DNA of 60,486 nucleotides from Ahrensia sp. GTDB lineage: Bacteria; Pseudomonadota; Alphaproteobacteria; Rhizobiales; Rhizobiaceae. Within the stretch, counting starts at the first letter, position 1. Each line of letters begins with the position of its first letter. This document shows, piece after piece, positions 1 to 60,486 of this stretch. Made by a program: the position numbers and the translations under genes. The stretch lies in assembly GCA_028817895.1 (NCBI GenBank), contig JAPPOQ010000031.1, positions 1-60,486 on the forward strand, read 5' to 3'. Under the pieces are notes generated by a model. The model had not been told where the DNA came from. It saw only the letters and a program-made list of their open reading frames with translations, and searched no databases.

Positions 1-249
1 AAGACCGCAGAGCGATGCTGGGCATCGCACGAGGATTTCGACGCCGCCAGAGCGGAAAAGACACCCAAGCAAATCGTATGCAAGGCAATAAGAATGAAGA
101 ATAATCTGCAATCGTTTGAACTTGTTCCTTTGCGCCCTGACTGCGTTGCGCACGAACTTGTGGTGCCCGCACCACGGCGTCGCACGCGCCTTGTCAGGTC
201 ACAAATTCCCTGCGCTCAAACGATTCAATCTGGGCGAGATTTGCTCTAG
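1..249 (+). mobile_element. MITE-like interspersed repeat, copy A (truncated by window start)
   Basis: This stretch is nearly identical to 53137-53384 and to the reverse complement of 60209-60486. It carries a small hairpin near its start (GCGATGC-tgg-GCATCGC), a central hairpin (GTGGTG-cccg-CACCAC) and the right terminal inverted repeat ending in TTGCTCTAG at 241-249. The left terminal repeat seen in copy B is missing because the window begins inside the element. It ends only 11 bases before the ybgC start, so it probably supplies or replaces the leader of the Tol operon. It encodes no recognisable protein. Confidence 0.85.
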
Positions 250-10941: not shown

Positions 10942-11343
10942 TGGGTCATCTGCGCGTGTCATCACCGCTATCACCTCGTTTGGATCACCAAATACCGCTA
11001 CAAAGTGCTGAGCGGGGATGTGCGGTTTCGAGTGCGCGAGATCATCCGTCAGGTTTGCGCTGAAAACGGTGTCGGTATCATCTCAGTCGTTCTGGCGAGC
11101 GGTCATGTGCATATGTTTGTATCGATCCCGCCGAAGCTGTCGGTGGCGGATCTGATGCGCAAGATGAAGGGCCGCTTGTCCCACAAGGTTCCGCGAGAGT
11201 TCTCGCAATTGAAGAACCACTATTGGGGACGTCACTATTGAGGCCGAGGGTATTTTTCAGCCACCAATGGCGCCATCACCGAAGACACCGTACTTCAGTA
11301 CCTTGAGGAACACGGCAACAAATCTACCGGCGCAAGCCGGTAG
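10942..11343 (+). pseudogene. IS200/IS605 TnpA (Y1 transposase) pseudogene, nonsense mutation
   Basis: The frame encodes an IS200-type single-strand transposase: YHLVWITKYRYKVL at the start, the HUH motif HVHMF, then KGRLSHKV and NHYWGRHY. A TGA at 11239-11241 stands where the family has Trp (HYWGRH-W-x-RGYF), and reading continues in frame after it with GRGYFSATNGAITEDTV and LQYLEEH, where the catalytic tyrosine lies. The stop therefore removes the nucleophile and kills the enzyme. The N-terminus is also incomplete. Confidence 0.85.
11324..11343 (+). repeat. IS200-type right-end hairpin, copy 1
   Basis: CTACCGGCgcaaGCCGGTAG is a perfect 8-bp stem with a GCAA loop overlapping the end of the transposase frame. 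Such subterminal hairpins are the DNA recognised by Y1 transposases. The same hairpin occurs at 15259-15278. Confidence 0.75.
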
Positions 11344-11393
11344 TGGTCCATCTGTGGCCAGGTTGACCCGCTACCATTTATCATTCGGATAGC

Positions 11394-15025: not shown

Positions 15026-15285
15026 GACCTGAGACCGGTTTTCTCGTCGAATTTTAGGTAGAATTCGTCCCCGACGAGGAGACGGATAGATGAGACGATC
15101 ACGGTTAACGACGAACAGATCATCGCGATCCCTGAAGCAGCAGGAGAGTGGTGTAGCGACAGCCGATCTATGTCGTGAACATGGGATCAGTTCAGCCACC
15201 GATGGCGCCGTCACCGAAGACACCGTACTTCAATACCTTGAGGAGCACGACGACAAATCTACCGGCGCAAGCCGGTAGCGGTCTA
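15026..15285 (+). mobile_element. chimeric IS remnant (IS3 left end plus OrfA joined to IS200 tail)
   Basis: It begins with an IS3-like left end (TGACCTGAGACCGG near 15027), then OrfA codons from ATG 15090: RRSR, a segment of changed frame, then LKQQESGVATADLCREHGIS. Two compensating single-base indels scramble the intervening residues. At TCAGCCACC (about 15189) the sequence switches to the last 90 bases of the IS200 transposase found at 11259-11343, about 91% identical. It ends at the M20 amidohydrolase stop codon. Confidence 0.8.
15259..15278 (+). repeat. IS200-type right-end hairpin, copy 2
   Basis: CTACCGGCgcaaGCCGGTAG, identical to the hairpin at 11324-11343. It marks the right end of a second, otherwise deleted, IS200-like element and lies 5 bases from the 3' end of the amidohydrolase gene. 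Confidence 0.75.
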
Positions 15286-29287: not shown

Positions 29288-30865
29288 CTAACCCGCCCGC
29301 ATTGCTGCTCGATCAAGATGTATCGCAAAGCGGTTACGCAGCCAGGCATCGGTTTCGGCGTCGATCAGATCGGGGAAGAACCCATCCAGCACCTCGCGTT
29401 TGCGGGCGATGGCCATGTGCACAATGTCGGGCTTGCCTTTTTCCGACCATTCCTTGGGGCTGAAGCGGTTTGCCAGATCGGGATAGTAGTAGTCACGCTG
29501 CATGAGATCGAGCGTCTGGCCGTGGCCGAGATAATGCCCCGGCCCCTGCATGCAAACTTCGCGCATTGCGTCGATGGACAGGGATTGGGGCGTTACCTCG
29601 ATGCCACGCACGCAACGCAGGGCTTGGCCTAGTGCATCGTTGTCCAGAAACAGGCTTTCCAGACAGAAGCCCATCAAGGAGCCATGCATTCCGGCTGCTT
29701 CATATACGATATTGGTTCCAGCCAACCCCGCCGTGACGTGAGCGATGCCCTTTTCCCACCCGGCTTGAATGTCTGGCAGTTTGGCATCGCACATGCCTGC
29801 CGCAGATCCTCCGGGCAGGTTGTAATAGTTGGCCATCTGACCGCAGGCAGCCGTCAACAGAGCCTGCTCGCCTGAACCGCCCGACATGGCTCCGGTGCGC
29901 AGATCAGACACGAAAGGCCATGTCCCGAAGATTGCGGGGTGTCCTGGCGCCAAAGCGTTGACGAATACGAGGCCAGCCAACACTTCAGCGACCGCCTGTA
30001 CCACCGAACCGGCAATGGCTGCCGGTGACGTTGCGCCTGCCTGCCCGGCGGAAAGCAGGAGCACCGGCATGCCACCCTTCACGCATTCCTCCAGCACGTC
30101 GCAAGCATCGGCGGCAAAGCGCAATGGCGGCACGACGAAGCAGTTGGAATTGGAAACGAAGGGCCGCTCTCGGAACGCGTCTTCACCACCGGCAACCTTG
30201 TACATCATCTCCAACGCATCCGGCACATAGTCGGCCAGCGTGAAGGATGTACCGATATGCTTGCTCGTGCCGGAGAGGCAGGCATAGAGCGTGTTCAAAT
30301 CCATCTCGCGCGGATCGGTGATGTCTCGAGCCACCATCGGTCGCTGGAAAAAATGGATGTTGTCGAGCGTTTCTACGATGCGCGCGGCGTCGTAAATGTC
30401 GCGCAAATAGCTTTCGCGGTAAGCATTGTTTTCCAGATCAACCACGTGAACGGCGGCGCCCGCCGTGCCGAAATGGACCTTCGAGCCTTGCGGATGGATG
30501 TCGTGTTTCGGGTCACGACCATGCAAGGCGAAACTTCTGTTTGCTGCTGCGATCGTGTCCATCACAAGGCCGCGCGGAAAGCGTAGGCGCCCATCCGAGC
30601 CGTTGACGGCCCCAACGCGTTCGCACGCTTCAATCAACGTGGGCGTTCCCTGCGACAGGCCGATCTCCTCGAGAACAGTGAGGACAGCCTCATGCACCTG
30701 CGCCACATCATCGTCAGACAGTGGTCGGTAAGTCCCGCCGGAGAGCCCCGCTCGGACGGGGCGAAGATCGGCGGCCAGCGGCGCAGCTCGCACAGCGCGT
30801 CTTGCGGCACGGCCTCCGTTGCGTGATGATCTCTGCGGCGCAACGTCGATATCCTGCACGGACAT
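29288..30865 (-). CDS. trimethylamine methyltransferase family (MttB superfamily) protein, non-pyrrolysine type
   Basis: Protein of 525 residues of the MttB superfamily: GLSGGTYRPLSDDDVAQVHE, LLSAGQAGATSPAAIAG, NYYNLPGGSAAGMCDAKLPD and the C-terminal PGHYLGHGQTLDLMQRDYYYP signature. The frame has no internal TAG, so it is not a pyrrolysine enzyme; non-Pyl members methylate cob(I)alamin proteins from glycine betaine, carnitine or similar quaternary amines. No corrinoid protein or methyltetrahydrofolate methyltransferase gene lies nearby. The N-terminus (about 1-40) is an arginine/alanine-rich extension. Confidence 0.88.
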   Translation of the reverse strand: MSVQDIDVAPQRSSRNGGRAARRAVRAAPLAADLRPVRAGLSGGTYRPLSDDDVAQVHEAVLTVLEEIGLSQGTPTLIEACERVGAVNGSDGRLRFPRGLVMDTIAAANRSFALHGRDPKHDIHPQGSKVHFGTAGAAVHVVDLENNAYRESYLRDIYDAARIVETLDNIHFFQRPMVARDITDPREMDLNTLYACLSGTSKHIGTSFTLADYVPDALEMMYKVAGGEDAFRERPFVSNSNCFVVPPLRFAADACDVLEECVKGGMPVLLLSAGQAGATSPAAIAGSVVQAVAEVLAGLVFVNALAPGHPAIFGTWPFVSDLRTGAMSGGSGEQALLTAACGQMANYYNLPGGSAAGMCDAKLPDIQAGWEKGIAHVTAGLAGTNIVYEAAGMHGSLMGFCLESLFLDNDALGQALRCVRGIEVTPQSLSIDAMREVCMQGPGHYLGHGQTLDLMQRDYYYPDLANRFSPKEWSEKGKPDIVHMAIARKREVLDGFFPDLIDAETDAWLRNRFAIHLDRAAMRAG

Positions 30866-40512: not shown

Positions 40513-40525
40513 ACGAGACTTGCTC
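40513..40525. repeat. MITE terminal-repeat core match at a convergent gene junction
   Basis: ACGAGACTTGCTC matches the core of the terminal inverted repeat of the MITE family exactly (compare 53076-53090 on the other strand). It sits in the 44-base gap between opgH and the esterase, two convergent genes. It may be a decayed remnant or coincidence; 13 bases is short. Confidence 0.3.
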
Positions 40526-40532
40526 CAGTGTT

Positions 40533-51900: not shown

Positions 51901-51925
51901 CGCTCCAATCTGGGCGAGACTTGCT
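51901..51925 (-). repeat. solitary MITE terminal-repeat copy after prpE
   Basis: Read on the minus strand this 25-base stretch matches 53076-53100, the left terminal repeat of MITE copy B, at 23 of 25 positions (core AGCAAGTCTCGCCCAGATTG). It lies between the prpE stop and the convergent coiled-coil gene. It and the MITE end at 53072 point towards each other, flanking that gene. Confidence 0.7.
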
Positions 51926-53003: not shown

Positions 53004-53071
53004 GGTGGGCTGATGGAGAGTGAACGCGTGTTACCCACTCACTCATAGGCAAGGCTGAGAAGAAACACCAG

Positions 53072-53384
53072 TTAGAGCAAGTCTCGTCCAGATTGGAGCA
53101 GTTTGATGGGATGGATTTTTCGATCTGGCAAGGAGAACACCGCAGAGCGATGCTGGGCATCGCACGAGGATTTCGACGCCGCCAGAGTGGAAAAGACACC
53201 CAAGCAAATCGTATGCAAGGCAATGAAAATGAAGAATAATCTGCAATCGTTTGAACTTGGTTCTTTGCGCCCTGACTGTGTTGCGCACGAACTTGTGGTG
53301 CCCGCACCACGGCGCCGCACGCGCCTTGTCAGGCCACAAACTCCCTGCGCTCAAACGATTCAATCTGGACGAGATTTGCTCTAG
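53072..53384 (+). mobile_element. MITE-like interspersed repeat, copy B (complete)
   Basis: Element of 313 bp bounded by terminal inverted repeats: left 53072-53095 pairs with the reverse complement of 53361-53384 at 22 of 24 positions (shared core AGCAARTCTCGTCCAGATTG), and the similarity continues with a gap to GTTTGA. Inside are the GCGATGC-tgg-GCATCGC and GTGGTG-cccg-CACCAC hairpins and an AATCGTTTGA/TCAAACGATT pair. Copies A and C match from about 53137 onward. No transposase is encoded, so mobilisation would need an enzyme in trans. Neighbours are the coiled-coil gene and eipA. Confidence 0.85.
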
Positions 53385-53414
53385 CTTCCTCACACCTCAT
53401 TCTCAAAAATGGAA

Positions 53415-60194: not shown

Positions 60195-60208
60195 ATCTTC
60201 TCTCCTAG

Positions 60209-60486
60209 AGCAAATCTCGCCCAGATTGAATCGTTTGAGCGCAGGGAGTTTGTGGCCTGACACTCCTTGATCCAGGGGGGCGCGTGCGACGCAGTGGTGC
60301 GGGCACCGCAAAGCATTGCGTGGGTTTGGGCGCAACACAGTCAGGGCGCAAGGAAACAAGTTCAAACGATTGCAAATTACTTCTCATCTTCATTGCCTTG
60401 CACACCATTTGCTTGTGTGTCTTTTCCGCTCTGGCGGCGTCGAAATCCTCGCGCGATGCCCAGCATCGCTCTGCGGTGTTCTCCTT
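60209..60486 (-). mobile_element. MITE-like interspersed repeat, copy C (truncated by window end)
   Basis: The reverse complement matches copies A and B over the whole length (terminal repeat CTAGAGCAAATCTCGCCCAG at 60207-60226), but contains two insertions of 12 and 15 bases around the central hairpin and the GTGTCAGG segment. The left terminal repeat would lie beyond the window end. It sits 13 bases upstream of the ABC ATPase start, so it forms that gene's leader. Confidence 0.85.

Follow-up and report, generated by a model that had tools for sequence, protein, structure and literature searches.

A dispersed MITE-like element of an Ahrensia genome with IS630-like ends and an inverted pair of conserved structured modules

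A 307-bp repeat in the genome of Ahrensia sp. is probably a non-autonomous DNA transposon of the IS630/Tc1-mariner type (a MITE), with a core fold that would be selected most likely as RNA and act in cis. It lies in the window, the whole stretch of DNA analysed, which is one entire contig (C30; 60,486 bp) of a 46-contig, 3.54-Mb genome. Inside the element, a 61-nt module is present twice, in opposite orientations, on either side of a spacer. Comparison of distant relatives placed the conserved part of the element in this interior, and the elements that contain the module have ends of five or more kinds.

Limits and copies of the element

The 313-bp repeat with inverted ends reported in the initial annotation is present, and its arms, at 53070-53095 and 53361-53386, show 92% complementarity over 26 nt. 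Comparison of flanks among copies trimmed it to 307 bp (GAGC...GCTC). For this, 40 copies were aligned, and the limits were set from the 25 copies of the same genome that reach both ends and have unrelated flanks; the same ends recur in copies dispersed over the genome. The ends read YTA/GAGC...GCTC/TAR, where the slash marks the boundary of the element. The module was searched for with two models, R1, made from nine sequences, and R2, a second model, both of which give only rough E-values as their calibration was short. The features of the element are:

53075-53381, forward strand: full MITE-like element; 25 copies reach both ends, and the 10 closest others are 93-96% identical
53073-53074, no strand: left flanking TA (target YTAR, here T-TA); 22 of 25 copies have TA here, with C or T ahead of it in 21 of the 22
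53382-53383, no strand: right flanking TA (here TA-G); 21 of the 24 copies that extend this far have TA, with A or G after it in 20 of the 21
53073-53104, forward strand: left end, IS630-like, 32 bases from the TA; 22 of 32 positions agree with the left end of L049, an IS630-family element of the same genome, a score reached by none of 2216 background TA windows
53352-53383, reverse strand: right end, IS630-like, 32 bases from the TA; 22 of 32 positions agree with the right end of L049, a score that none of the 2216 background windows reaches
53125-53185, sense on the forward strand: left structured module (R2, 76.8 bits, rough E 2.4e-17)
53272-53332, sense on the reverse strand: right structured module, divergent (R2, 26.9 bits, rough E 1e-6 in an unfiltered search of 361 bases)
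53205-53240 (element positions 134-169), no strand: hypervariable spacer between the modules, with a mean diversity of 0.286 among aligned copies

Both strands of the element fold far better than shuffled sequences (z of -6.92 and -5.91), with none of 100 shuffles as good on either. Of the six reading frames, two have no stop codon anywhere in the element, and neither of their 102-aa translations matches Pfam at E≤0.1, in agreement with the earlier description of the element as lacking a protein. Diversity among the copies is lower outside the spacer, at 0.047 and 0.072 in the left and right modules, 0.044 and 0.067 in the ends, and 0.116 in the 27 bases adjoining the spacer.

The initial annotation counted three full copies plus fragments in 60 kb. 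One full copy is present, together with two partial copies and two short end matches; the copies at the contig edges are real, but both are truncated by the contig ends. One fragment is a likely end remnant and another may be chance. The additional copies and remnants in the window are:

1-249, forward strand: partial copy at the contig start, 96% identical to 53136-53384
60205-60486, reverse strand: partial copy at the contig end, 84% identical over query positions 59-313
51901-51925, reverse strand: likely solitary end remnant, 88% identical to the end motif over 25 nt
40514-40528, reverse strand: possible solitary end motif, a 15-nt match with one mismatch that may be due to chance

The proposal that the genome holds many copies was borne out. 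At least 40 places in the genome are copies of the element or parts of it as judged with the 313-bp query, a lower bound because scoring covered 40 of the 92 first-look candidates; the 50 matches to this query include 10 further ones, which are cross-matches between the two ends. The 15-base terminal motif, allowing up to two mismatches, occurs at 123 places genome-wide as compared to 21 for its reversed control. The YTA...TAR flanks at most copies fit insertion into YTAR with duplication of the TA, and 6 of the 25 own-genome copies lack the TA on one side. Shorter internal derivatives also occur, one of 189 bp with a single module (L134) and one of 234 bp (L136), and similar ones are found in another genome, G172. 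The terminal inverted repeats, TA flanks, dispersed copies, shorter derivatives and lack of a Pfam match, together with the absence of a related G107 element from syntenic sites of three congeners, support the assignment to a MITE family, an interpretation that is nevertheless too narrow, since the ends are IS630-like and the core is conserved. Many other contig ends of the assembly also fall inside copies, indicating that the element limits the assembly.

A search of 14 congeners with the whole element gave no match and hence no empty site for the family. Orthologues of the neighbouring gene were also compared (80 loci kept of 91). Among the matches listed, all stop at the gene and none crosses the insertion, so the empty site of the window copy is unreadable by that route. 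The nearest relatives of this gene are in uncultured genomes of the Rhizobiaceae group, and those with a name that come closest include Ahrensia sp. R2A130.

Two other features of the window lie outside the element. A 93-nt direct repeat, 92% identical, is present at 11256-11348 and 15191-15283, 3.9 kb apart. An Rfam match to PYLIS_3, the pyrrolysine insertion sequence (29695-29794, reverse strand), falls inside an MttB-family gene (29288-30865, reverse strand), whose 525-codon frame is uninterrupted and which is therefore probably a non-pyrrolysine homologue.

Likeness of the ends to IS630-family elements

The genome contains two matches to PF13358 (DDE_3), of which one is above the cut-off. 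This match (L049, on contig C24) lies in an element of 1027 bp that has TAGAGCG ends and whose reading frame seems to be split. L049 was considered as the exact autonomous partner of the 53075-53381 element and was rejected, as 10 of 32 positions differ at each end. Among 31 PF13358 loci, inverted ends beginning with TA were detected by script at eight. The ends of L049, L194, L211 and L220 were scored against element ends; L193, L200 and L204 have other ends and were left out, and L218 repeats L211. Each IS end was given the best of 32 element ends, and the scores, that of L049 (22 of 32 at both ends) included, are therefore biased upward: the left end of L194 matches the L161 element at 26 of 32 positions, and the right end of L220, a broken IS in genome G150, matches the L052 element at 24 of 32 and the L155 element at 23 of 32, none of the 2216 background TA windows doing as well in any of these cases. 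Weaker matches, subject to the same bias, were obtained for the right end of L194 (20 of 32, one background window as good), the left end of L220 (20 of 32, none) and the two ends of L211 (18 and 21 of 32, with four and two windows as good). The right end of the window element (53352-53383, reverse strand) and the left end of the IS630-family locus L194 both contain GATTGAATCGTTT, at an identical offset. GANTC sites were seen in the right end of the element and in several IS630-family ends (ends compared: L001, L049, L194 and L211). GANTC is the CcrM methylation site.

By their sequences, the two commonest end types of module-bearing elements, TAGAGC and TACCAA, thus both resemble IS630-family ends. 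The ends might instead belong to other transposase families, for example of IS5 type with short TA duplications, their likeness to IS630 reflecting convergence or shared descent of end motifs. Some IS5 groups duplicate TA, there are end types besides TAGAGC and TACCAA, namely TAGGCT, TAGCAGGCTG, TAGTGTCCTG and TAGCCCGG, and three IS630-family loci have other ends. The best matches to PF13358 loci, however, reach base 31, at a fixed offset, in ends of TAGAGC type and base 25 in those of TACCAA type, and none of the 2216 background windows does as well; we regard this alternative as unlikely.

The initial annotation had pointed to a transposase bearing the same terminal repeats. The likeness to IS630-family ends is partial, and no autonomous element with the exact ends of the 53075-53381 family was found. 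PF13358 matches are present in 10 of 14 module-bearing genomes. Genome G107 contains two different IS630-type elements, each ∼99.7% identical between the two copies compared. In G172, a genome of one contig with 125 end motifs, a search for PF13358 gave no match, and the 100 listed places of the 125 include no two ends separated by 0.8-2.5 kb. A 749-bp end pair in G172 was considered as an autonomous candidate and dropped when it proved to be two separate elements.

Target-site duplication, a check also proposed earlier, would be consistent with the TA present on both sides of most copies. The comparison with empty sites in relatives of G107 holds at the level of synteny rather than of single bases: L155, a relative of the element in G107, is absent from three congeners (G188, G189 and G191) in which both flanks are syntenic, and a fourth, G190, shows orthology at this site on the right flank only.

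Element boundaries and stop codons

Element boundaries show a moderate bias toward stop codons. Of 64 element sides, 14 have a boundary TAG that terminates an open frame of 100 codons or more, as compared to 10 of 128 when the two remaining frames are counted (Fisher p 0.0096); with a minimum of 180 codons the counts are 12 of 64 and 4 of 128, both length thresholds having been picked afterwards. At four loci (L004, L007, L018 and L021), open frames of 196-402 codons enter the element and gain a short C-terminal tail.

Structure and covariation of the core module

The internal hairpins noted in the initial annotation are present, a description that proved too narrow, as they belong to a conserved module that occurs phylum-wide and also within other ends. 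The 61-nt module comprises three helices and two conserved internal loops. The right module of the 53075-53381 copy was absent from the list of the filtered R2 search at E≤5, and its counterpart in the copy at the contig edge (137-197, reverse strand) scored 28.7 bits (rough E 8.9e-5). In an alignment of 63 sequences (A5), 90.4% of the cells assigned to pairs were paired and 19 of 21 pairs showed double changes, with none of 500 shuffles as good on any measure; sliding the alignment out of register reduced pairing to 29-36%. Helix 2, which is absent from model R1, covaried in six of its seven pairs in A5. A larger alignment of 113 distinct modules (A7) gave 90.5% pairing, double changes in 21 of 21 pairs (a count reached by 2 of 500 shuffles) and 522 double-change cells as compared to 148 in shuffles (0 of 500 as good), results that lean toward the structure because R2, the model used to align A7, already includes the pairs, and that cover both L268 and L280, which are one place.

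The wobble pairs are asymmetric. In A5, G-U occurs 71 times and A-C six times; leaving out the four weakest pairs, the counts are 43 and 6, as compared to 84.6 and 54.2 in shuffled columns. Helix 2 has 32 G-U and one A-C, with 24 of the G-U in its two weakest pairs, and eight and one remain without those. Recounting A7 without L280 (75 loci, 113 distinct rows) gave 137 G-U and 21 A-C, an excess common to RNA and single-stranded DNA. Because each G-U corresponds to an A-C on the complementary strand, the fold seems to be under selection on the sense strand only, probably as RNA.

The loops are conserved as well. In A5, G.A oppositions are present in 61 of 63 sequences at two places, and one position alternates between A.G (35) and C.A (26). 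An internal loop was considered as a kink-turn, an assignment that was dropped since the bases left unpaired on the opposite strand are incompatible with it. Three loop letters are nearly fixed in the 113 distinct rows, namely G8 (112), A119 (112) and C120 (113). These observations bear on a simpler account, in which the element is an ordinary decayed MITE and its internal folds are functionless by-products of a palindromic origin. While short derivatives and solitary ends do exist, and strong folding is common in bacterial MITE transcripts according to one report (PMC5896051), by-products would not hold identical loop letters, nor do they explain covariation, strand-asymmetric wobble or a module that can still be recognised in several classes despite changing ends and spacer. 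We therefore consider decay alone to be very improbable.

Distribution and arrangement of the module

Using R1, the module was found in 53 of 151 genomes of the family, from 45 of 109 genera (E≤0.001), and in 50 of 397 genomes of the order (E≤1e-5); using R2, it was found in 43 of 385 genomes of the class and 24 of 398 of the phylum (both at E≤1e-5), the four samples overlapping, each including the genome under study, and differing in model and threshold. Eleven of the 24 phylum genomes are listed outside the class. Ten stretches from nine of these 11 genomes were picked because they were hits, and in six of the ten (L270, L271, L273, L274, L275 and L279) the module lies within a palindromic element of 264-287 bp; the script found no such palindromic ends in the other four.

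R2 finds 116 modules over 76 loci when both L268 and L280 are counted. Without L280, 38 of 39 adjacent module pairs are inverted (+/-) with their 3' sides facing inward, and the gaps between modules are 41-47 nt in 31 pairs and 77-88 nt in seven. Ends were assigned at 55 of the 76 loci, 27 of TAGAGC type, 15 of TACCAA type and 13 of other types, with no ends found at 21 loci; the script demands a TA at the start, and some of the other ends are internal to the true ends (for example at L239, L243 and L273). At L031 (∼1630-1690, genome G017), a small palindrome, AGAGCATTT...AAATGCTCT, lies inside a TACCAA-type element, apparently as a nested insertion.

This distribution allows a broader, tentative reading, which we hold with less than even confidence: the core may be an undescribed structured RNA or single-stranded DNA cassette found throughout Pseudomonadota, usually as an inverted pair, that spreads because it is packaged in the terminal repeats of several unrelated transposon types. 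If so, conservation would attach to the folded core instead of the transposon ends, and with the pair inverted, transcription of either strand would be sure to yield one functional copy.

Comparison with described repeats

As a MITE, the element is of a known kind, and the closest described is RUP of Streptococcus pneumoniae, which is 107 bp long and was proposed to be moved by the IS630-Spn1 transposase (PMC2229807). As described there, RUP also lacks a transposase, has terminal repeats like those of an IS630-family element, targets TA and has many intergenic copies. The element described here is larger, at 307 bp, and contains two inverted structured modules with phylum-wide relatives. QMITE1 and QMITE2 of Coxiella are, as reported, likewise MITEs whose transcripts are predicted to fold strongly and which can extend a protein at the insertion site; they are set apart by their description, with different direct repeats and, for QMITE1, no orthologues reported in other genomes (PMC5896051).

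CGTC and GTAG REPs are 20-40-bp palindromes with a terminal tetranucleotide which, as described, occur in alphaproteobacteria as short intergenic hairpins, often in inverted pairs (PMC3733652). This raises the alternative that the module is a hairpin of single-stranded DNA, formed during replication or transfer, that serves a second mobile system as in REP/RAYT, its inverted pair being analogous to a REPIN. The inverted arrangement of 38 of 39 distinct pairs would agree with such a system, as would a varying centre and outer ends that differ between elements, which are expected of a self-standing core. Columns 118-121 of A7 read GACG in 44 and AACG in 49 of the 113 distinct modules, and the antisense of GACG, at this fixed place, is CGTC, the tag letters of CGTC REPs. 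Against this, the module has 61 nt, three helices and two conserved loops, exceeding the 20-40 bp given for REPs in the same source (PMC3733652), and it lies in elements that end in IS-like inverted repeats. We regard a REP-like role as improbable.

The element does not correspond to a named repeat of Rhizobiales insofar as the comparisons, which covered Sinorhizobium meliloti pSymB and Rfam, can tell, in line with the initial annotation. Its identity with an S. meliloti Sm repeat was considered and not borne out for pSymB (1.68 Mb), which holds Sm-4 and Sm-5, the two repeats that the comparison covers, and which gave no R1 match at E≤0.01 under strict filters. The two regions were located through PMC2780559. 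By eye, Sm-4 (L146) looks like a CGTC-type REP. In the region given as Sm-5 (L147, ∼395-500), a palindromic unit has the same outer letters, TAGAGC...GCTCTAG. The pSymB 'Repeat sequence' B31 (L148, 247-476), as given in PMC2780559, overlaps a cobalamin riboswitch (119.6 bits).

Searches of Rfam returned only PYLIS_3, outside the element, for the window at the gathering cut-off; one sub-threshold match, outside the element, for 15 loci at E≤0.5; and three sub-threshold matches, two of which overlap the element in L274, for 10 loci outside the class at E≤1. RIME resembles the element as a palindromic, mosaic, intergenic repeat of rhizobia and would differ from it in the length of RIME1, ∼108 bp, and in its palindromes. 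No description of the module was found in the open-access literature searched.

A proposed route and its implications

The reading that we favour as probable would involve an IS630-family transposase that binds the ends in trans and excises the element, which would then reinsert at a TA within YTAR. This may sometimes be the TA of a stop codon, and at such sites the end of the element would supply a new TAG. The 61-nt fold would be selected on one strand, most likely as RNA, as its covariation and strand-asymmetric wobble suggest. With the modules inverted, a transcript entering from either side has one sense module, and one sense module per crossing transcript is the simplest reason we can offer for the inverted pairing of a strand-specific fold. 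The folded module may act in cis in the host transcript, which for insertions at stop codons would mean at the 3' end of the gene; we take this action to be the weakest step of this route. There it might bind a protein or stabilise the RNA, which would make insertions easier to tolerate and so help the family to persist.

Bacterial MITEs are usually defined by their ends and are often viewed as lineage-specific relics. Here the usual picture is reversed, in that the ends change and the folded core stays across classes of Proteobacteria, which raises the question of what selects the core. A covariance model of the module could find many intergenic repeats that are presently unannotated.
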